DNA from: Nitrosospira sp. Nsp11
GTDB lineage: Bacteria; Pseudomonadota; Gammaproteobacteria; Burkholderiales; Nitrosomonadaceae
Direction of reading: 5' to 3'
DNA: 64,000 nucleotides
Assembly (NCBI RefSeq): GCF_900142705.1
Contig: NZ_FRBV01000001.1
Coordinates: 372,001 to 436,000 of the forward strand
The position numbers and the translations under genes were made by a program. How positions within the stretch are numbered: position 1 is the stretch's first letter; every line of letters starts with the position of its first letter. Positions 33,583 through 50,028 of this stretch are shown in pieces. Under the pieces are notes generated by a model. That model saw nothing but the letters and a program-made list of their open reading frames with translations. It was not told the DNA's origin and searched no databases.

Positions 33583-34620
33583 ATGGGGGAATCTCCGCAC
33601 GCCCTTCTCAGCAGCGATAATCCATTCATGGACATAGGCATGTCTTTTTCAGCTTTTGCGGCACCGTTCGTTGCTTTCATGATCGCGTTCGCGCTGATTT
33701 CCTATTTGATCAAGGGCGGCCTTCTCAAAGTGCTGGACTACCCGAATCCCCGCTCCCTTCACAGCAAGGCTGTTCCACGAACCGGCGGACTGGGCTTGAT
33801 GTCCGGGGCCCTCGTCTCATGGGCGCTTCTCCCCGGCATGCTGCCGTTGTCCATATGGGCAAGCGTTATATTACTGGTAGCAATCTCCTTTGCCGATGAT
33901 GTCTCCGGCCTGCCGGCCTGGGCAAGGTTTCTGATACATGGAGCGGTTGCAGTCTGGTTCTCCGTAGCAATGCTATCCGATACCCATGGCTGGATGGTCA
34001 CGGCGATGGCCGCGGTCGCAATTACCTGGATGCTCAATCTTTATAACTTCATGGACGGCTCAGATGGCTTGGCAGGCGGAATGACGCTGATTGGTTTCAG
34101 TTGCTACGGCGTGACCGCATGGCTAGCCGGGAATGAGCCGTTTGCCATGATCAATTTCTGCATCGCTGCGGCAGCGGCAGCTTTCTTGTTGTTTAATTTT
34201 CATCCCGCACGTATTTTCATGGGAGATGCAGGATCAATTCCGCTAGGATTCCTGGCCGCAATATTGGGTATTATGGGCTGGACAAACGGTAACTGGCCAT
34301 TATGGTTGCCGTTGCTTATATTTTCACCATTTATTGTCGATGCTTCTGTTACTCTCGCGAAACGCGGTCTGCGCGGTGAAAAAATTTGGGAGGCGCATCG
34401 CGAGCATTATTATCAGCACATGGTGCAAAGCGGTTTGGGTCATCGCAATACAGCCCTGCTCGGCTATGTTCTCATGTTAGCCGCGGGCGCCAGCGCAATA
34501 TGGGCGATGAGACAGCAAACTGCCGTTCAGCTCGGGGTCGGCGTCGCATGGGGTGGAATTTATCTCATCATGGTACTGGTATCCGACAACTATTGGAAAC
34601 GCCATCCGGGTCGCTCATAG
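33583..34620 (+). CDS. WecA/WbpL-like undecaprenyl-phosphate sugar-1-phosphate transferase
   Basis: A 345-residue polytopic membrane protein with about ten helices. Motifs of glycosyltransferase family 4: RSLHSKAVPRTGGLG near the N-terminus, FADDVSGLPAWARF, NLYNFMDGSDGLAGGM with the catalytic acidic residues, and ARIFMGDAGSIPLGFL. It transfers a UDP-linked aminosugar phosphate to undecaprenyl phosphate, initiating O-antigen or other polysaccharide. An alternative start is ATG 33628 (MDIGMSFSAF). The next gene, a CapD-type dehydratase, starts one base after the stop, so the two form an operon and may act on the same sugar pathway. Confidence 0.93.
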   Translation: MGESPHALLSSDNPFMDIGMSFSAFAAPFVAFMIAFALISYLIKGGLLKVLDYPNPRSLHSKAVPRTGGLGLMSGALVSWALLPGMLPLSIWASVILLVAISFADDVSGLPAWARFLIHGAVAVWFSVAMLSDTHGWMVTAMAAVAITWMLNLYNFMDGSDGLAGGMTLIGFSCYGVTAWLAGNEPFAMINFCIAAAAAAFLLFNFHPARIFMGDAGSIPLGFLAAILGIMGWTNGNWPLWLPLLIFSPFIVDASVTLAKRGLRGEKIWEAHREHYYQHMVQSGLGHRNTALLGYVLMLAAGASAIWAMRQQTAVQLGVGVAWGGIYLIMVLVSDNYWKRHPGRS

Positions 34621-34621
34621 C

Positions 34622-36580
34622 ATGCCTGTACATAAACTTAATATACGCGCGGGAATTGCCTTCATTCACGATCTTGCCGCAGTAATCGCTGCCTGGTGGT
34701 TCGCTTATTTGTTCCGTTTCAATTTCGAAATACCTCCTTTTTACCTGGCGGCATTGAAAGAAATCCTGCCATTTACGGTTTTGATACACGCGGCAGCGTT
34801 TCTATGGTTCGGCCTGTATCGCGGGCTCTGGCATTACGCCAGCTTGCCCGATTTACGGCGCATCCTCTTCGCTGTATTGGCATCAGCAGCCGCAGTTCCC
34901 CTGGCGTTATACCTGTTGCAAGTACACACCGGCGTACCACGTACCGTGTTGCTGCTGGCCCCTATTCTGCTTCTGGTTATCATGGGAGGAAGCCGCCTCG
35001 CCTATCGGTTATGGAAGGAGCATCGACTTTATGGACGAAAGAAACTGGAAAAAAATCTCGTCCTGGTGCTTGGGGCGGGAGATGCCGCAGTCGGACTGGT
35101 GAAAGAGCTTGCCCGGAGCGTGCAATGGGAAGTAGTGGGATTTCTGGACGATGATCCCGCTAAGCGGGGCTTGATGCTGCACGGCTTCAGGGTCATGGGG
35201 CGAATCAGCGAATTACCGGCCGTCGCAAAAAAGTATCGCGTGGATCATGCCATCATCGCCATGACATCCTCGTCTTCCGATCGCCGTAAAGTATACCGCG
35301 CCCAACCCGACAGGCGCCAACCGGACCGCCTTCTACGCAATCGGCGCCGGGCGATGCAAATGTGTTCGACCGCTGGCGTAAAGGCGCTGATCGTCCCTTC
35401 ATACGACGATTTGATCAGCGGTAAAATCACTGTGTCGCAGATCCGCACTGTCGAGCCGGAAGATTTACTGGGCCGGGACTCGGTGATATTGGATAACGAC
35501 GGATTGCATGGCTTGCTGGCAGGAAAAACTGTTTTGGTTACGGGTGCTGGCGGCTCAATCGGTTCGGAGTTGTGCCGTCAAATTGCGAAGTTCAGGCCGG
35601 GCCGCCTGGTGCTGTTCGAGTTGAACGAATTCGCGCTTTATAGCGTCGAGCAGGAATTCCAGGCCAATTTTCCGCACATCCCCATGGTATTCGCCATAGG
35701 CGATATCAAGGACGCTGCGCGGCTGGCTCAAGTGTTCTTGCAGTACCAGCCGAAGGTTGTATTCCATGCCGCAGCCTATAAGCATGTACCGTTGATGGAG
35801 CATGAAAATGCCTGGCAAGCTGTCATGAATAACGTTTTTGGAACTTATGTGCTGGCACAGGCTGCGATCAAGCAGGGCGTGGAAAAATTCGTATTGATCT
35901 CGACTGATAAAGCGGTGAATCCTACGAATGTCATGGGCGCGAGCAAGCGCCTGGCGGAAATGGTATGTCAGGCTCTGCAGCAATCCATCTCCATTGCTGG
36001 TAACGCCTCTGGAAAAGATGGCTTGACCGACAGGAATCATGTGCCGGGTTTTGTCATGGTACGTTTCGGAAACGTACTGGGTAGCGCGGGCAGTGTCATT
36101 CCAAAATTCCGTGAACAGATCGCAAAGGGTGGGCCGATCACTGTCACCCACTCGGAAATTACCCGCTACTTCATGTCTATAACTGAAGCCACGCAACTGG
36201 TTCTGCAAGCGGGACTAATGGGGAGGGGAAAGGGTGGCGGAGAAATTTTCGTGCTGGATATGGGCGATCCCGTGAAGATAGCCGACCTCGCAAGAGACTT
36301 GATCCGTCTTTCCGGCCTGAGCGAGAGTGATATACAAATTGTATACAACGGGTTACGCCCGGGGGAGAAACTCTACGAAGAGTTGTTGGCAGATGATGAG
36401 AACACTTTGCCGACACCCCATCCCAAATTGCGCATTGCCCAGGCCCGCCAGGTCGAGAAACAGTGGCTGACGGAACTGCTGGCATGGATAAACGAGAATC
36501 CGGCATTAAGCGATGAGGAAGTCAAACAGGACTTGAAAAGATGGGTTCCGGAATACTCAAGCCAGGAATTCATACAATGA
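34622..36580 (+). CDS. CapD/WbpM-type nucleotide-sugar 4,6-dehydratase
   Basis: From ATG 34622 (MPVHKLNIRAG) the protein has 652 residues; the open frame begins upstream but overlaps the previous gene. Four N-terminal membrane helices precede a CoA-binding-like Rossmann domain (LVLGAGDAAVGLVKELARSV). The second domain is an extended SDR with KTVLVTGAGGSIGSELCRQI and the TDKAVNPTNVMGASKRLAEM segment that replaces the classical YxxxK site. FlaA1/WbpM-type enzymes convert UDP-GlcNAc to the 4-keto-6-deoxy sugar. Between the domains there is an Arg-rich stretch (YRAQPDRRQPDRLLRNRRR) longer than I expect in this family. Confidence 0.93.
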   Translation: MPVHKLNIRAGIAFIHDLAAVIAAWWFAYLFRFNFEIPPFYLAALKEILPFTVLIHAAAFLWFGLYRGLWHYASLPDLRRILFAVLASAAAVPLALYLLQVHTGVPRTVLLLAPILLLVIMGGSRLAYRLWKEHRLYGRKKLEKNLVLVLGAGDAAVGLVKELARSVQWEVVGFLDDDPAKRGLMLHGFRVMGRISELPAVAKKYRVDHAIIAMTSSSSDRRKVYRAQPDRRQPDRLLRNRRRAMQMCSTAGVKALIVPSYDDLISGKITVSQIRTVEPEDLLGRDSVILDNDGLHGLLAGKTVLVTGAGGSIGSELCRQIAKFRPGRLVLFELNEFALYSVEQEFQANFPHIPMVFAIGDIKDAARLAQVFLQYQPKVVFHAAAYKHVPLMEHENAWQAVMNNVFGTYVLAQAAIKQGVEKFVLISTDKAVNPTNVMGASKRLAEMVCQALQQSISIAGNASGKDGLTDRNHVPGFVMVRFGNVLGSAGSVIPKFREQIAKGGPITVTHSEITRYFMSITEATQLVLQAGLMGRGKGGGEIFVLDMGDPVKIADLARDLIRLSGLSESDIQIVYNGLRPGEKLYEELLADDENTLPTPHPKLRIAQARQVEKQWLTELLAWINENPALSDEEVKQDLKRWVPEYSSQEFIQ

Positions 36581-36599: not shown

Positions 36600-38450
36600 T
36601 TACCCAAGGGACGACTCAGAGTTTCTGGCCATCACATCCTTTTGCGCATATAAAGCCCGAGCAAGCTTGGCGTAAGCTCCACCTCTTGCGAGTAATTCCC
36701 GGTGACTGCCGATCTCGACGGCTCCGCCTCTACCCAGCAGGACGACGCGGTCCGCTTTCTCCATGGTGGCTAAACGATCGGCGATAACAAGCGTGGTACG
36801 CTCTTGCACGACGGCATCCAACGCTGCCTGCACATGATGCGCAGATTCGATGTCTATCTTTTCGGTTGCCTCATCCAGGATCAGGATAGGCGAATTTTTA
36901 ATCAGTGCGCGCGCAATGGCAATACGTAGCCGCTGTCCCCCCGTAAGGTTTACGCCGTGTTCCCCTACGAGGGTTTGCAATCCCTGGGGCATCTTCCGGA
37001 TGAACTCCGTTGCGTGCGCGGCTTGTGCTGCAGCAGTGATCGTTGCTTCTGTTGCCCGGCCCAGTGCGCCATAAGCGATATTGGCCGCTATCGTATCGTT
37101 GAAGAGCGTTGTCTTCGATGATACCAACGCAATATTGGCGCGCAGACTGGCCAATTTAAGGCTCCTTAAATCATGGCCATCAAGCAGAATCTTTCCTGAT
37201 GCGGGATTAATGAAACGCGGCACCAGACTCGTGAGCACAGCGGTGCTTCCTGAAAAACCTACTAATGCCACCATTTCACCCGGCTGTATGGTCAGAGTGA
37301 TACCCAACAGCGCCGAACATGCGCCGATACCCTGCTGGCCACCGGGCCCGGGATTCGCTTTGGAGCCGCCTTCAAAGCTCTTTTCCCGATCGTGGTAGAA
37401 ATGGACCTGTTCGAATCGTAATTCGCCGCGCGCACGCTCGACGATAATTGTTCCCGTGTCCGGTTCAGGCTCCTGGTCAAGCAGCGAAAATACGCTCTCG
37501 ACCGCTCCTAGTCCATGCCGCACGACCTCCTTCAGACCGGCAATGCGTTTCACTGGAGAAATCAGCATCAGCATGGCCGCCATGAAAGAAACAAAGCTGC
37601 CTGCAGTAATCTCATCGGCAAACGCTTGCTGAGCTGTTACATAAACAATAACCGCCAGCGCTCCTGCAGCGGCTATTTGTATCAACGGTACACGGAGAGA
37701 GGCCATAGCCATTCGTCTTTTAGCTAAGCGATGCGCTTCCTCCGCCTTTTCCCTCATGCGCTGGTTTTCATACTGCTCACCGCCGTGAAGCTTGACCACC
37801 TGGTAGTTCTCGATGGCATCCTCCAGCACCTGGTTGAGGCTTCCCATTGTTTGTTGGGCTTCCATTGCCATTTTTTGCAGTCGCACCGTGACGAGCCGCG
37901 TGATCAGCAGCATCGCCAAGGCCATCAATAACGCCAGCAAGGCAAGCCGCCAGTCGAGATAAAGCATCCATCCCAGCAATCCCAGAACCACAAGCACATC
38001 CTTGACTGCCACCGTTATGACATCGGTAAAGGTACGGGCGACCTGCTCGGTGTCGGATGTGATTCCGGAAACGAGGTTACCGCTCTCGTGACTGGTGCAA
38101 TAGGGAGCTGGCAAGGTCAACAACTTGGCGAACATCTCCACCTGCAAGTCCAGCACCAGTTTGCTTCCTAGCCAGTTCACCGCATAGGCCCCGATATGGC
38201 CGGCCACCGCCCGAACCGCAAACAGGCTGATGATCCCCAGCAGAACGAGCTGCATCAATTCCAGGTTCTTGCCAGCAATAGCGCCATCCAGCATCGGTTG
38301 CACCAACGCGACCAGCATAGGTACACTTGCCGCCATCGCAATCATGCTTATTACCCCAAGTATGACCGCGTCCCAATAGGGCGCGACATACCTTATCAAG
38401 CGCAGGCATAGTTGACGGCGGGTGGGAATTTGCGTGTTTTGCATGCGCAA
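36600..38450 (-). CDS. MsbA-like ABC half-transporter with degenerate ATPase site
   Basis: A 616-residue type I ABC exporter half. The transmembrane domain (about 1-320, six helices) follows MsbA closely, for example NWLGSKLVLDLQVEMFAKLL and GLGAVESVFSLLDQEPEPDTG. The nucleotide-binding domain is damaged. Walker A reads VGFSGSTAVLTSLVPRF (397-413), one residue shorter than normal and without the GKS/T lysine. The Q-loop reads LVSSKTTLFNDT, with Ser445 for Gln. The D-loop is EKID for SALD, and the H-loop is VIADRLAT with Asp558 for His. The signature NLTGGQRLRIAIARAL and Walker B ILILDEAT remain. An insert of about 20 Gly/Ser residues follows FYHDREKSF. MsbA flips lipid A; this copy probably cannot hydrolyse ATP normally. 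The frame is open throughout. Confidence 0.85.
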   Translation of the reverse strand: MRMQNTQIPTRRQLCLRLIRYVAPYWDAVILGVISMIAMAASVPMLVALVQPMLDGAIAGKNLELMQLVLLGIISLFAVRAVAGHIGAYAVNWLGSKLVLDLQVEMFAKLLTLPAPYCTSHESGNLVSGITSDTEQVARTFTDVITVAVKDVLVVLGLLGWMLYLDWRLALLALLMALAMLLITRLVTVRLQKMAMEAQQTMGSLNQVLEDAIENYQVVKLHGGEQYENQRMREKAEEAHRLAKRRMAMASLRVPLIQIAAAGALAVIVYVTAQQAFADEITAGSFVSFMAAMLMLISPVKRIAGLKEVVRHGLGAVESVFSLLDQEPEPDTGTIIVERARGELRFEQVHFYHDREKSFEGGSKANPGPGGQQGIGACSALLGITLTIQPGEMVALVGFSGSTAVLTSLVPRFINPASGKILLDGHDLRSLKLASLRANIALVSSKTTLFNDTIAANIAYGALGRATEATITAAAQAAHATEFIRKMPQGLQTLVGEHGVNLTGGQRLRIAIARALIKNSPILILDEATEKIDIESAHHVQAALDAVVQERTTLVIADRLATMEKADRVVLLGRGGAVEIGSHRELLARGGAYAKLARALYAQKDVMARNSESSLG

Positions 38451-38556: not shown

Positions 38557-40623
38557 TCAGTCAAACTGATATTTTACGGTGAACCAGACATTACGCTCGC
38601 GAGCGGGTAGCGCATTGAAGCTCGTGCCTGGTGCGTTGCGAATCGCATATGAAAAATATTTTTCGTCGAATAAATTGTTTACTGCCATGCTCAGCAACAG
38701 CTTTCTTAGCTGGTGAGTAAACTTGAGATCCACGGTAACGTAATCCGGCATGCGACGCGTGGCTGTATTGGCCTGATCGTTATCGAATACCTGTTCCCCA
38801 ACATAATTCATCGTCGCAGCGAAACGCGTTGTCGGTGCAAGCCGAATGGTACCGCCAGCTGAAACCTTATGGCGCGGCACCAGCGGAATGATGTTTCCTG
38901 AAACATCGACGCCGCCGAAATTCCCCTGACGAAAACGTGCATCACTGTAAGTGTAGCTGCCGGATACATCGATTGCGCTGTTAACAGCCCAGGACGCCTC
39001 CAGTTCGAGACCTTGCCGCCGGGTAGGGGGGAGGTTCGTATTAGCAAAAAACCGAAACGGGTCTATGTTGATGAAGTTGATCTCATTGTTGAGGTTGATC
39101 CGGTAAAGTGAGGTACGGGCACGTACTGGTCCTTGCTGATAATCCAGCCCGATTTCTCCGGTATGAGCGGTTTGAGGCTCAAGTATCTTGATTATGGAAT
39201 CGAATGCCGGCCCACCGAACTGATTGAAGTTTTCATCTACCGTGGGTATACGGAAACTGCGGCCAAACTTACCGTAGAACGAAAATGCAGATCCCAGTGG
39301 CTGACGCACGCCGACGTCATAGGCATGGACGGTGCGGCTCTGCTGACCACGGGCATGCGCTGAGGGATTGAAACGATCATTGGCCTTATTGTCCACCCAT
39401 TGCAGCCGCCCTCCCAGCGTAATGGTCGTACCTTTGGGTAGAGTAGAGGTGTGTTGCAGGTAAACTGCGCGATTCTGCTGAGTCGCCACGACATCGGTCT
39501 GTAGTGTGGTGGCGGATGCTGAGCCCGGCACGGTTTCCGATCCGGTAAGGCGTTCGGCACGATAGTCCCACCATTCCAGATTCGCGCCCAGTATCAGTTC
39601 GTGATCCATTCCCAAAGCCTGAAACGGCAGTTTCGCCCTCGGATTGAACAGCCACACGTCGGATTGTGAATTGACGAACGTTTTGGAGTTGAAGCCATCG
39701 ATACTGTAATCATCAAACAATGCCGTGCGACGGACATCGCGAAAGGAAAGATCCGCGGCAAACTCGCCAAATCCAGTAGTGCGTTCTCCCCGGAGCGTCA
39801 CGTATGCGCCCTCGCGCGTGCTGAAATCGCGCGGCGTCGCGGTCCCTTTCCGGTCTGTTCGCAACTGCGATTCGGTGCGAGGCCCCGGTAATTCCAATCT
39901 TTGGTCATCCAGGCCGAACTTCAACAATGCCCGCCCACCGGTAAACTTATAGCGTAGATCTCCTTGCAGGTTCAGTTGACGCAATGCGTTGTTGACGCGA
40001 TAGTTATCCGTTTGCAGCGCGTTACCGGTGAGCGCCAACCCAAGGTTCTTGCCTGCAGCGTTTAGCGTCCCATTGAATTCCGTTGCACTATAGCTGCCAA
40101 TTGAAACGCCTCCGGTACCCGACACACGACCAGGCGCGGCAGCGCGTGTGACGATATTGATTACGCCACCCGTGGCGCCAGCCCCATAGGTCACGGCGCC
40201 GCTGCTTCGGAGCACTTCGATGCGCTCAATTGAATCAAGCGGAACGGTCGACCAGCGGACACCCACCAGTTCGTTTTCATTCATCCGCTGGCCATCGAGC
40301 AAAACCAGCGTGTTCTGATTACCCGTAATGCCGAATCCGCGCATGTCGATCTGGGGGTCCGGGCTGCCATCGACATTACGGGTATGGATGCCGGCCAGTT
40401 GTTGCAGCAACTCCGGCAAAGTCGAAGCAGCACTATTTTTGATCTGCTCGGCGTGGATCACAGAAACGCCTATCGGCAACTTCTCGACACGCTGATTAAA
40501 GCGGGTGGCGGTAACGACGATCTCTTCAAGCGGGAGTTTCGCCGGATCGCTGGATTCAGCGATCGCCATTGAAGACGCAGACATGACAAAAAATGGAAAA
40601 AGTAGTTTGTGGAATAGACCCAT
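38557..40623 (-). CDS. btuB: BtuB-like TonB-dependent receptor under cobalamin control
   Basis: From ATG 40623 the protein has 688 residues, with signal peptide (MGLFHKLLFPFFVMSASSMA) and TonB box LEEIVVTATRF. The plug contains STLPELLQQLAGIHTRN, QIDMRGFGITGNQNTLVLLD and GAVTYGAGATGGVINIVTRA. The barrel ends NVWFTVKYQFD. The open frame extends to 40728, but that extension lies in the leader RNA. A cobalamin riboswitch upstream on the same strand strongly suggests the ligand is vitamin B12 or another corrinoid; the protein alone would only justify TonB receptor. No btuFCD genes adjoin it. No clear Shine-Dalgarno precedes the ATG; instead CTCCTCC occurs about 16 bases upstream. Confidence 0.88.
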   Translation of the reverse strand: MGLFHKLLFPFFVMSASSMAIAESSDPAKLPLEEIVVTATRFNQRVEKLPIGVSVIHAEQIKNSAASTLPELLQQLAGIHTRNVDGSPDPQIDMRGFGITGNQNTLVLLDGQRMNENELVGVRWSTVPLDSIERIEVLRSSGAVTYGAGATGGVINIVTRAAAPGRVSGTGGVSIGSYSATEFNGTLNAAGKNLGLALTGNALQTDNYRVNNALRQLNLQGDLRYKFTGGRALLKFGLDDQRLELPGPRTESQLRTDRKGTATPRDFSTREGAYVTLRGERTTGFGEFAADLSFRDVRRTALFDDYSIDGFNSKTFVNSQSDVWLFNPRAKLPFQALGMDHELILGANLEWWDYRAERLTGSETVPGSASATTLQTDVVATQQNRAVYLQHTSTLPKGTTITLGGRLQWVDNKANDRFNPSAHARGQQSRTVHAYDVGVRQPLGSAFSFYGKFGRSFRIPTVDENFNQFGGPAFDSIIKILEPQTAHTGEIGLDYQQGPVRARTSLYRINLNNEINFINIDPFRFFANTNLPPTRRQGLELEASWAVNSAIDVSGSYTYSDARFRQGNFGGVDVSGNIIPLVPRHKVSAGGTIRLAPTTRFAATMNYVGEQVFDNDQANTATRRMPDYVTVDLKFTHQLRKLLLSMAVNNLFDEKYFSYAIRNAPGTSFNALPARERNVWFTVKYQFD

Positions 40624-40751
40624 GGTATCAGCTTGTAATTGGAGGAGTCGTATCCACCATGTATCGAGAACAAGGAAATACCGCAGAGGCTTTTGAGCGA
40701 ACAGATATCGATCAGGATACCGCCCCACGCGATATTTCCATTTGCGTTCAA

Positions 40752-41270: not shown

Positions 41271-41471
41271 ATGGAATCGGAACTGAAATCCCTCGAAGAG
41301 AAAATTGATCAATTCGTGCATTTATGTCATCAATTGCGGTTGGAAAATATCCAACTCCGCCAGGACCTGGCTGGCACCATCAGTGAAAATAAGCGTTTGG
41401 CCGAAAAAATAGGTGTCGCAACCACTCGTCTCGAGGCTATCCTGATGCAGATTCCGGAAAGCGAAGAATGA
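41271..41471 (+). CDS. zapB: ZapB-like small coiled-coil cell division protein
   Basis: From ATG 41271 the protein has 66 residues and is nearly all coiled coil (MESELKSLEEKIDQFVHLCH, then LRLENIQLRQDLAGTISENK). It belongs to the small coiled-coil family always found directly upstream of zapA in betaproteobacteria (TIGR02449 type). ZapB-like proteins join ZapA to stabilise the Z ring. A TTG at 41235 would add 12 residues inside the duplicated leader and is less likely. The stop overlaps the zapA start (ATGA). Confidence 0.82.
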   Translation: MESELKSLEEKIDQFVHLCHQLRLENIQLRQDLAGTISENKRLAEKIGVATTRLEAILMQIPESEE

Positions 41472-41776
41472 AGACCGGCAAAGCTTTGGATGTAACCATC
41501 ATGGGGCGGGAATTCCGCGTTACCTGCCCCGACGAAGAGCGCGAGGAACTACTCCAAGCGGTGGCCTATCTCGACAAAAAGATGCGTGAAATCAGGGATA
41601 GCGGCAAAGTGGTCGGGTCAGAGCGCGTCGCTATCATGGCGGCCCTGAACATTACTCATGAATTGCTCACGACGAGAAACAGAGGAGGCTTTGACATGGA
41701 AGAATTTAAGCGTAGAATCGATCACATGCAGGCAGCGCTTGATGCGGTGATGCCGGAACAGGACAAGTTGTTTTAA
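41468..41776 (+). CDS. zapA: Cell division protein ZapA
   Basis: A 102-residue ZapA: N-terminal strand domain (ALDVTIMGREFRVTCPDEER) followed by LLQAVAYLDKKMREIRDSG and ERVAIMAALNITHELLTTRN, ending in a C-terminal coiled coil (FKRRIDHMQAALDAVM). ZapA bundles FtsZ filaments. Translation is coupled to zapB. As in many proteobacteria it is followed by the 6S RNA gene. Confidence 0.95.
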   Translation: MKTGKALDVTIMGREFRVTCPDEEREELLQAVAYLDKKMREIRDSGKVVGSERVAIMAALNITHELLTTRNRGGFDMEEFKRRIDHMQAALDAVMPEQDKLF

Positions 41777-42083: not shown

Positions 42084-44885
42084 TCAGTCACTCGGCTTCT
42101 TCGTCCCTGGCGCAGGATTATCCTTGCTGGTGACATGCATGGCAAGTTGCTGTTTTATTTCCGCGGGTTCATGATCAGGTTTTCCGCCTCCCGTCAATTG
42201 TACCCACCTGGCAACCGAAGGCACGCCTCGTTTGTTGACCAGGAACAACATATACCGTCCCGGTGGGGCGATGTTCTGCTCGCTCAGGACATTGACATGC
42301 AAACGGCAAAAATCGTGCGCCTTGAACTCAAGGTCTACCACGCGCTGCCCGGTCTCGCATGAGTGGGTTGTCGCCATGAGCCAGATCAGTTCGACCCAGT
42401 GAATCTCTTCAGCCTGTGGGGTATGGATTTCAAATTCTCCGCCGTACAGGATCTGCTGCGGTACTGTCTCGATGAAGGGCCGAGGGCCCCGGAACAGATA
42501 TGGCGGATGATAGATCTCAAGGCGCAATTCGTCGTCTCGCCTGTTCGGATTGGATCCGGCCGCAAGCACGCGGCCGTCGGGCAGCAGAAGGGCAATTGAA
42601 TGATACAGCCGTCCGGCTTGTGCCGTAGCGGCCGCAATCCAGGTGTCGGTAGCAGGATCGTATATCTCGGCCTCCAGAACCGCCGTTGCCACAACTTCAG
42701 ATTGGCCATTTCCACCTGAAACAAATACGGTCCGATCCGGCAGTAGAACCGCATTTACGTGAAACCGCGCGTGAGTCATGGACGCAACCGGCTCATAGGC
42801 CGGCGCGGAAGCTTTCAGATCGATAATATGCGCGGTGTTGATCGCGGGGTCGCCTCCGCCCAGGATCATGACCCGCTGGTCTTGGGCAGGCGCCAGCAGC
42901 ACGCTGCCGCAGTGATCTCTGCTCTGGCTGAATCCTTCCGGCAACGTGACAATGGTCATTGTGCTTGTGGCTATATTCAGGAACCCTGGCAACACTTCTA
43001 CCGGATTCGGAGAGCGGATCAAACAGATAGCTGGTTTCGAGCCCAACGAAGGGGCAGCCATCCCTGTCATACTCCTTTGTGCCGCCCGCGACAAGCAACC
43101 GGCCATCAGGCAGAAATGCCTGGCCTGCGCAGAAGAAGTCCACAGGAGTAAAAGGAGAAATAAACTCTCCGTTTTCATAATCCCACACCGCACTGCGCAA
43201 GCCGGTGGTGAAAAGTTCATCATTGCCCGAGCCAGCAAACAATAAAACTTTACCGGTATGCGACACCGCACCATGAATAGCGAGTATCGGCGCGGGACAG
43301 GGCAGCAATTCCCACCTTCCTTTCGTGGCTGCTTCAAGGATATCCCGCGAAGGCATGGCGCTCATTCCGCCCATGCCCATGCCGGCCATACCTACCGCTT
43401 CCACGGTTGGCGCCAGGTGCTCCCTAGCGCCGCCCGAATGGTCGTGGCCGGATGTGGGCGCTGCATCGTGGTCATGCAGGCAGCGCAGAATATCGACCGA
43501 TGGACACTCATTCATTCCATCGTCAAAGGGCAATTCCACCTCGATCGACTTGCTCAATTCGTCGGAAATCCAGATGTACTGGCGAGCACGAACCAGGCCG
43601 GCCAGACCGGCCATCATGTGCTCTTCAACGTGGCAGTGGAAAAGGAAATCTCCGCGAATTCGCACGCGACAGGCATTTTCCGACGGATTCCACTGAAACT
43701 GCTCGAGAGCGTACGGAAGCCGTATGGCGGGAGGAATCTCGGTATCGGTGATAAATGTTTCCAGAGAACTCATTCCGTGTACATCGGATGCGCCTCCAGG
43801 AGGAAGCGGCAGCGCCCAGCGAACCGAATGGGGGTGAAAGTTGTGCCAGATACCGGAGACATCCAGGTTGAATATACCAGCGTAGTTTCTCGCCAGTATC
43901 CCCCGCCACTGTCGGTGTGTTCCCGACAAACGGGCGGCCATTGAGGCAGAAGTTTGGAGCGCCGCCTCCAGCAGAAAACACAATGTGTTCATGGTTGTCG
44001 TCATTTTGCCAGTGGATGCTTCCGCCAGGGCACACCTGGATCAGGGAAGGGACGAATTTGTTGTCCTGGACGCTGACGTTTGCGCTGACCGGTGCGCCCG
44101 CCGTGACCTGGACTGTTCCATTCATCGCGGGACCGTGGATCGCGCAGTAATAGTGAACAATCTTCGCATCGGCAAAAACGAAATTGAACGAATCGCCATG
44201 AGCAAGAGGCTTGCTTTGAAACGCAACGCCCGAGCTTCCGGCAAATTGATGAATAAAAACCGGAACCTCATGATCTGCACAAGGCGCGGCCGGGTTTCGG
44301 ACGATCAAACCTCCGAATAAGCCCCAGATTAATGTTTCGCGCAACGTCGTGCGCGTGGTCATGAAACCCCCAGGCGCCCACCATGTCAGGCGTAACGTCG
44401 TAAACGTAAGTTCACTTCTGACCAGGAAGAATTTCATCGCTGCGCCCTCCATCGCGCCCCGCGACACCCAGTGGCCAGGCCCCATCCGATTCGATTCCGT
44501 AACGTAGCCCGTGAATATGAAAACTGTGACAGTCGCTTGTATCCGCGTTCCAGACATGGATATACAGCCGCTCCCATGGTTTTGCATAGAGCAGGCAGCC
44601 CGGAATCCTGCGATCCCACGGCGGTTCGTTGACATCCGCCTTGATGAGCTTCGCCTTGTTCGGAATCGTATATTGCGCGTCGAGATATTCGCGGTAGACC
44701 AGGCCATCGGCGGTACTGGCCAGGATTTCCTGCGCGGATACGCGGCCCGATTCATGGCCTGGGTTGAACATGCAATCGCACCCAAAGTGACGCGCGCAGG
44801 CCACAGGTGCGAGCGGGCTATAACTCGGCAGCGATTCAATTTTCAGAAAAATGTCGCGTCGGCGGAAGTTCATCATAGCCCCCAT
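42084..44885 (-). pseudogene. Broken multicopper oxidase / galactose-oxidase-like fusion
   Basis: The minus strand encodes in sequence a cupredoxin-type multicopper oxidase N-terminus (ERLYIHVWNADTSDCHSFHI, GLRYGIESDGAWPLG; then GAWGFHDHAHDVARNINLG, HYYCAIHGPAMNGTVQV, GDFLFHCHVEEHMMAGLAGL) and a kelch/galactose-oxidase-like C-terminus with a DUF1929-type end (VLLFAGSGNDELF, RVMILGGGDPAINTAHIIDL, YHSIALLLPDGRVLAAGSNP). The parts lie in three frames. Lesions seen: in-frame TGA at 44412-44414 (after LPGQK), a one-base gain near 44317-44320, net +1 shifts near 43871-43877 and near 43000-43008. His motifs are intact in every piece, so decay is recent or the sequence has errors. Met-rich MGMGGM/HDH segments join the halves. 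Confidence 0.82.
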
Positions 44886-49077: not shown

Positions 49078-50028
49078 ATGGTAAATGAAGAACATGTTTC
49101 CGTATGCGAAGCTGAAACCGTGAAGATGCTGACGATCGAGCCCGGAGCCGATCTATCGACGCCGGAGATGCGACGCACAGCCATTGAGACGTTGGAAGGG
49201 GGAGGCGTCATCTACCTGCCCAGAAGCGGTTTTGAGCTGACCGAGCAAGAGCGGGACCTGATCTCTGACACGGCGAAGATCCTGACCCAAGAGCCCGACG
49301 TTCAGGACGGCCGGCCCACAATCATCTTCGATCCTGCGCGCGGCAGTATCAAGAAATATCATTACGCGCGCGTGCGCGGCAAGATGATGCGCGCCAAGGT
49401 CAGAGATACGGCGCGTCCTGATCTCGAGGCGGCCATGGCGCGCTACGGCAAGTGGACCGAAAGTGTGATCGGCCAATTGTTCCCCAGCTATCAAGGAACG
49501 CTGGACCGCAAACGGGTCACCTATCGGCCTTTTCAGCGCAGTAACATCCAGGCCCTGCACATCGACTCGAGCTACGGGTATCCTACCCAGGGGCGCGGCA
49601 TGTTGCGCATTTTCTCCAACATCCATCCCACCACTCGACCGCGTATCTGGCAGCTCGGCGAACCGTTTGAACCCTTCGTGCGTCGCTTCCTGCCTTCCGT
49701 GCGCCTCAAAGAGCCGAGTTTGATTTCTTCTATTCTGGCCCGCCTCGGCATCGTCGATGGAACCAAAACCAAATACGATCAGTACATTGCGGCGCTTCGC
49801 GCCCTCGGCATGAGCGACAAGGAATACCAGCAGACAGCACCGCACAAGTTCATGGAGTTTCCGCCCGGCTCAAGTTGGATCGCGATCACCGACCTGGTGC
49901 TGCACGGCGCGGTGTCGGGGCAGCACAGCTTCGATCAGACGTTCTACCTGCCCGTGGATGCGATGAACGATCCGTCGCGTTCATCGCTTCGCATTTTGGA
50001 GAGGTTGACCGGCGAGGCCCTGGTTTAA
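49078..50028 (+). CDS. kdoO: Kdo hydroxylase (Fe(II)/2-oxoglutarate dioxygenase)
   Basis: A 316-residue protein of the 3-deoxy-D-manno-oct-2-ulosonate hydroxylase family. The HxD iron ligands are His161 and Asp163 in NIQALHIDSSYGYPTQGRGM; the third His is in ITDLVLHGAVSGQHSFDQTF, after residue 270. TYRPFQRSN and RIFSNIHPTTRPRIWQLGE are family-typical. The enzyme oxidises the outer Kdo of lipid A-Kdo2 to Ko, altering LPS inner core. The gene is visibly richer in G+C than its neighbours and has 680 bp of empty DNA upstream, hinting at transfer. No other Ko gene is next to it. Confidence 0.88.
   Translation: MVNEEHVSVCEAETVKMLTIEPGADLSTPEMRRTAIETLEGGGVIYLPRSGFELTEQERDLISDTAKILTQEPDVQDGRPTIIFDPARGSIKKYHYARVRGKMMRAKVRDTARPDLEAAMARYGKWTESVIGQLFPSYQGTLDRKRVTYRPFQRSNIQALHIDSSYGYPTQGRGMLRIFSNIHPTTRPRIWQLGEPFEPFVRRFLPSVRLKEPSLISSILARLGIVDGTKTKYDQYIAALRALGMSDKEYQQTAPHKFMEFPPGSSWIAITDLVLHGAVSGQHSFDQTFYLPVDAMNDPSRSSLRILERLTGEALV

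Follow-up and report, generated by a model that had tools for sequence, protein, structure and literature searches.

Lipid A synthesis is committed at the LpxC step, and MsbA, the lipid A flippase, is usually viewed as inseparable from both ATP hydrolysis and LPS. An ABC-exporter-like membrane fold operating free of ATP is found in peptide transporters of the SbmA/BacA type, which have no nucleotide-binding domain (NBD) and belong to another family. In MsbA the lipid A headgroup is ringed by R78, R148, Q256, R296 and K299 (PMC8660845), and an exterior lipid site is formed by R188, R238 and K243 (PMC10945598). Two laboratory forms, MsbA-deltaK382 (without the Walker A lysine) and MsbA-MD (without the NBD), are reported not to rescue an E. 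coli msbA mutant; MsbA-MD is called drug transport-active, and PE flopping by E. coli MsbA is described as needing ATP (PMC8660845). Natural loss of catalytic residues in exporters kept by selection is documented for TAP, MRP1 and Pdr5, each of which has one degenerate site and keeps one canonical site, with the Walker A lysine absent from one site of Pdr5 (PMC7756269).

The gene examined here lies in a window (the whole stretch of DNA analyzed, 64,000 nucleotides) from Nitrosospira sp. Nsp11, the genome of which comprises 3.2 Mb in 35 contigs and is 99.97% complete. It forms a single stop-free frame of 616 codons on the minus strand, in agreement with the first-pass annotation of this DNA, and starts at a TTG, followed two codons on by an ATG in the same frame (38444). 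The gene and its surroundings in the window are as follows.

33583..34620, plus strand: wecA-like glycosyl transferase family 4 gene (PF00953)
34553..36580, plus strand: capD-like sugar-nucleotide dehydratase gene (PF02719), tail to tail with the msbA-like gene
36600..38450, minus strand: full-length MsbA-fold half-transporter with a degenerate ATP site, 616 amino acids from TTG
38557..40728, minus strand: TonB-dependent receptor gene, upstream of the msbA-like gene; 5 of 10 outgroup regions likewise carry a relative close to msbA
41468..41776, plus strand: zapA (PF05164), a member of the conserved msbA neighborhood

Both the ABC exporter transmembrane domain (TMD) and the NBD were matched by Pfam. 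The best NCBIfam model was TIGR02203 (MsbA) at 571.3 bits, below the curated cut-off of 602, and the closest solved structures were MsbA proteins. The product resembles MsbA (TIGR02203; E. coli b0914; PDB 8gk7, 7met, 3b5w) in domain order and approximate length and shares with it the cavity residues R78, R148 (as lysine), Q256 and K299, but it is without the A-loop, Walker A, Q-, D- and H-loop residues, and the tested lipid A genes are missing. Like one site of Pdr5 it has no Walker A lysine; unlike TAP, MRP1 and Pdr5, a homodimer would have no canonical site at all, and no partner is evident. The resemblance to MsbA-deltaK382 and MsbA-MD is likewise partial, since the Nsp11 protein keeps its NBD. 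Terminator and promoter scans yielded no useful signal. A galactose-oxidase-like gene at 42084-44885 (minus strand) is broken across three frames, its relative at locus L109 (genome G002) being one frame of 1022 amino acids; this broken gene at 42-45 kb forms a contrast to the intact msbA-like gene nearby.

The ATP-site positions of the Nsp11 protein were read as follows.

37392..37394, minus strand: A-loop column (E. coli Tyr351), occupied by His353
37227..37259, minus strand: remnant of Walker A at residues 398-408, GFSGSTAVLTS, shorter by one residue and with Thr403 in the Lys382 column
37116..37118, minus strand: Q-loop position (E. coli Gln424), occupied by Ser445
36933..36947, minus strand: ABC signature, reading LTGGQ, close to canonical in this protein and lost in many relatives
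36870..36875, minus strand: Walker B Asp526-Glu527, kept
36852..36863, minus strand: D-loop EKID, replacing SALD
36777..36779, minus strand: H-loop position (E. coli His537), occupied by Asp558

The first-pass annotation had described the Walker A, Q-loop, D-loop and H-loop losses together with a retained signature-like motif and Walker B, and all of these were seen in the sequence. The A-loop loss, which it did not list, is a further change; a tyrosine sits one residue before the His353 column. A glycine-rich insertion of approximately 20 residues follows the A-loop position, at about residues 355-380, and is missing from the aligned solved MsbA relative.

To place these changes in a wider context, a family set of 125 genomes was compared, comprising Nitrosospira (g1, 23 genomes) and its sister genera g2 (8), g4 (9) and g3 (85). 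An ortholog was present in 23/23 Nitrosospira genomes, with identities of 45-100%. ATP motifs were read in 53 of the 125 genomes (23/23 of g1, 4/8 of g2, 6/9 of g4 and 20/85 of g3) by an ORF-based extraction that favors open frames, the 20 g3 loci being a non-random sample, mostly of the best-scoring matches. The full motif set, defined as Walker A, Q-loop, signature, Walker B and H-loop, was found in 0/23 Nitrosospira, 0/10 g2 and g4, and 0/20 g3 loci; it was complete in 29/29 orthologs from other families of the order, these being the best-scoring of 123 other genomes of the order with a match. The A-loop tyrosine was present in all 29 outgroup proteins and in 1/23 g1, 0/10 g2 and g4, and 1/20 g3 loci. 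The Walker A lysine alone survives in 11/23, 3/10 and 16/20 loci of these groups, and a complete Walker A (Gly, Gly, Lys, Ser/Thr) was found in none of g1, none of g2 and g4, and a single g3 locus. An intact signature was seen in 3/23 g1, 0/10 g2 and g4, and 0/20 g3 loci. Within Nitrosospira, the Walker B glutamate is kept in 23/23, the Asp-Glu pair in 16/23 and the H-loop histidine in 8/23. The replacements vary among lineages, and the Walker A loop is deleted in four g4 genomes. Retention was further examined at positions at least 90% identical in the 29 canonical relatives. In Nitrosospira, retention was 0.48 at 19 ATP-motif positions versus 0.80 at 98 other NBD positions and 0.67 at 99 TMD positions, and the difference between ATP-motif and other NBD positions was significant in every group (Mann-Whitney, p = 0.0001 in Nitrosospira, 0.0009 in g2 and g4, 0.018 in g3), indicating that loss is concentrated on the ATP contacts beyond what chance would give.

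A search with the Nsp11 protein at E 1e-72 gave no match in 40 of the 125 family genomes, two of which (G029 and G030) do carry a copy, found through TIGR02203. Loss of msbA across the whole of g3 was considered and rejected, a looser threshold having recovered a divergent copy in 20/20 extracted g3 loci, although complete g3 genomes, G097, G038 and G110 among them, may have lost the gene. The genus g3 is probably Nitrosomonas, because lpxK alone is reported for N. europaea (PMC3087551) and LpxK was confined, within the family, to g3, where 82/85 genomes had it. Five loci (L036-L040, in G017, G010, G016, G007 and G014; 5/125 family genomes) have degenerate ATP motifs yet score above the TIGR02203 cut-off, so that these proteins would be named lipid A exporters by automated annotation.

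Phylogeny and gene order were used to establish the origin of the gene. In a tree of 80 proteins, 45 degenerate sequences grouped together with an SH-aLRT of 100, nested in an MsbA clade of equal support (100), and six paralogous exporters fell outside that clade; the tree was made by a quick method, and warnings were raised for some long branches and skewed compositions. The genome encodes five PF00664 exporters in total. Against TIGR02203 the four others scored 466, 415, 324 and, for one, with no match listed, all below the 571 of the msbA-like product; L003, L004 and L005 are among these lower-scoring proteins, L003 being presumably Atm1-like, and L001 is a cyanophycin-associated ABC exporter (NF052233, 1398 bits). 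Neighborhoods were typed by Pfam for the window and by reading of the sequence elsewhere, with crude gene calls. A TonB receptor adjoins the gene or lies within three ORFs of it in 14/15 Nitrosospira regions, and capD is adjacent or one small ORF away, tail to tail, in 13/15; in g3 this arrangement with capD occurs in 13/20 regions. Among 10 outgroup regions, one of which (L134) showed no msbA in these gene calls, combinations vary, with a TonB receptor in 5, an EVE-like gene in 6, a TSUP-like gene in 4 and zapA in 3. The outgroup genome G159 has a canonical msbA with the same TonB receptor, EVE-like and TSUP-like genes, and sugar-transferase-like genes between msbA and the capD-wecA pair. Tree position and a neighborhood shared with canonical msbA indicate that the gene is very probably a vertical ortholog of the lipid A flippase gene and not the paralog proposed in the first-pass annotation. 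The second, functional MsbA that was expected elsewhere did not emerge from the genome search, and a paralog beside a functional MsbA is rejected, since none of the other four exporters scores as MsbA. With the tested lipid A genes missing, a second MsbA is also not to be expected.

Loss of lipid A genes in this family has been published: N. europaea is reported to have lpxK alone, and N. multiformis lpxA alone (PMC3087551). That paper is silent on MsbA, and the literature searched, as far as its text was available, yielded nothing on MsbA of Nitrosospira or its family. In our set LpxC was detected in 0/125 family genomes by a search that did match E. coli and three further controls. WaaA was found in only 1/125 (G079). 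That genome is a MAG that is fragmented, shows 6% contamination and gave two LpxK matches, and its WaaA is possibly on foreign contigs. LpxK was present in 82/125 family genomes, all of them g3, a genus that keeps LpxK though LpxC was found in no family genome. With G159 proteins as tblastn queries, lpxD, lpxA and lpxB were found in 0/12 family bamA regions versus all three in 4/4 outgroup regions, and the G159 genes themselves were confirmed by curated HMMs; in 12/12 family regions the bamA locus continues with fabZ and then rnhB. The window also holds a Kdo hydroxylase-like gene (49078-50028, plus strand, 316 amino acids, PF11004 at 278.7 bits), in a genome without detected LpxC, LpxK or WaaA, which is a further putative orphan LPS-type gene.

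Proteins of the Lpt system were retained. LptF/LptG were detected in 121/125 family genomes and LptD in 26/26 tested, the Nsp11 copy lying at C34:501561-502655, and lipopolysaccharide export proteins are mentioned in the genome announcement of N. stercoris (PMC6706690). Since the LptF/G models also match controls such as Thermus and Thermotoga, finding LptF/G retained does not necessarily imply a cargo like lipid A.

All 53 loci read have one open frame across both domains (from residue 24 or earlier to residue 556 or later, in Nsp11 numbering). Pairwise Nei-Gojobori dN/dS, computed on stop-to-stop frames that include a few codons before the start, ranged from 0.15 to 0.30 in 12 close pairs, whereas WecA gave 0.14-0.29 and CapD 0.04-0.15, each in 11 pairs; these values carry no error bars, and pairs share genomes. 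The by-domain comparison suggested in the first-pass annotation was run, and TMD and NBD were found under similar constraint. The four closest canonical msbA pairs gave 0.056-0.092 at dS 0.42-0.77, a range that most Nitrosospira pairs fall below, so that the two sets are not strictly comparable; eight other outgroup pairs gave 0.19-0.49 at near-saturated dS. Because the values for the degenerate gene are above those of the four closest canonical pairs, constraint looks relaxed relative to canonical msbA, but real. When random substitution was simulated, the frame remained stop-free in 29% of runs at 0.02 substitutions per site, 4% at 0.05 and 0/2000 at 0.25. Neither a broken frame nor a dN/dS near 1, as would mark a pseudogene, was found. 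Read together, the sequences argue strongly that the family has lost both lipid A genes and the ATP-binding and hydrolysis residues of MsbA while the two-domain protein has stayed under purifying selection. The gene loss itself was known (PMC3087551); the new element, for which the case is strong, is an ATP-dead MsbA kept after it.

The lipid cavity was compared in the same orthologs. In Nitrosospira, R78 is conserved in 23/23, R148 as K/R in 23/23, Q256 in 23/23 and K299 as K/R in 21/23. The acidic residue at position 41 (D41/E) is lost in 23/23, the Nsp11 protein included, and R238 of the exterior site is arginine in only 8/23; R296 and D252 are not conserved in the outgroups either. The ring is eroded in g3, with R78 in 18/20, R148 as K/R in 7/20 and K299 as K/R in 9/20. 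From the basic ring kept in Nitrosospira, the protein of this genus looks able to hold an anionic lipid despite the loss of lipid A genes. Ceramide/CPG2 (phosphosphingolipid) genes, with putative transport genes, have been reported for N. eutropha (PMC11324152; PMC9386255).

The explanation that we favor, at even confidence, is that MsbA was orphaned by the loss of LPS and retained as an ATP-independent, lipid-handling pseudo-ATPase. The protein would work without nucleotide, and its transmembrane chamber, which keeps most of the basic phosphate-coordinating ring, would probably bind an anionic lipid, with phosphosphingolipids among the candidates, in an envelope that has no LPS. The bound lipid might traverse the inner membrane or be lodged there, either passively or driven by an ion gradient, with the dead NBDs holding the dimer in a fixed geometry. 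The protein may act upstream of the retained Lpt proteins, as the presence of LptF/G and LptD suggests that something may still travel the Lpt route. Confidence differs among these parts. Lipid handling by the product falls slightly short of an even chance, and an ATP-free flipping step of this kind is doubtful; given the failure of E. coli MsbA without the Walker A lysine or the NBD (PMC8660845), it is a conjecture, and no precedent for ATP-free movement of lipid by MsbA was found in the literature consulted. Conversion of MsbA, after the loss of LPS, into a nucleotide-free gate supplying the Lpt proteins with a substitute lipid for the outer membrane (possibly a phosphosphingolipid) is decidedly unlikely. 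Erosion of the ring in g3, the loss of D41/E and the low retention of R238 in Nitrosospira, dN/dS above that of the four closest canonical pairs and genomes without a match all count against the favored explanation.

In the main rival the product is a scaffold or regulator: the dead MsbA would move nothing and would anchor or tune a polysaccharide assembly complex with the products of the neighboring wecA and capD genes. The tail-to-tail arrangement with capD, at most one small ORF apart in 13/15 Nitrosospira regions, and the adjacency in 13/20 g3 regions agree with such a role, as do rmlA- and rmlC-like genes flanking the other side in one Pfam-typed g3 region (L210) and the better conservation of the NBD outside the ATP motifs than of the TMD in g1 (0.80 vs 0.67). 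However, proximity to capD and wecA is inherited, as G159 has a canonical msbA in the same region, the convergent orientation of the gene and capD means that they form no operon, and the lipid ring of the cavity is kept in Nitrosospira; we regard this role as unlikely. Slow decay of a gene made dispensable by lipid A loss, eroding by substitutions in a still unbroken frame, would account for motif losses that vary by lineage, for dN/dS above the four closest canonical pairs and for genomes seemingly without the gene. A six-frame search also flagged a stop inside the matched span of eight copies (G016, G017, G028, G033, G044, G096, G099 and G105), but all except G105 were read with an open frame over both domains, indicating that the flagged stops of those seven lie near the ends. 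Furthermore, dN/dS resembles that of the adjacent WecA, an unconstrained frame would seldom have stayed open in the simulations at 0.05 per site and never at 0.25, and the nearby oxidase gene has broken where the msbA-like gene has not. Decay is thus distinctly improbable, and the earlier view that this is not simple decay is borne out by the 53/53 open frames and the dN/dS values.

The remaining explanations concern the ATP site itself. The first-pass annotation had proposed a degenerate half paired with a canonical half-transporter of the genome, and the near-intact LTGGQ of Nsp11 could indeed make a composite site complete when paired with another half; the genome encodes four further exporters. 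With the signature intact in only 3/53 family loci, neither composite site could be complete in most species, and no partner exporter gene lies beside the msbA-like gene in the Nitrosospira and g3 regions viewed, which makes a heterodimer highly improbable. Continued ATPase activity through unusual residues could draw on the Walker B residues and occasional H-loop histidines of Nitrosospira and on the Walker A lysines surviving in each group, yet a complete Walker A occurs at one locus and the full motif set at none, and E. coli MsbA without that lysine is termed ATPase-deficient (PMC8660845); such activity is hardly credible. The probability of sequencing or assembly error is negligible, as independent genomes share or parallel the changes. 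Alignment of orthologs, which the earlier annotation had recommended as a check, gave no Nitrosospira genome of the 23 with a complete motif set, and read error was rejected on the ortholog of G001, which is 90% identical and shares the Walker A, Q-loop and H-loop changes.

With lipid A genes and the ATP site of MsbA lost but the protein kept, this family of ammonia oxidizers represents a natural experiment on the MsbA fold without ATP. The retained Lpt proteins point to another outer-membrane lipid, and a route for it, in nitrifiers. If MsbA did become a nucleotide-free lipid gate, an ABC exporter would have turned into an ATP-independent lipid transporter in all genera of one bacterial family.
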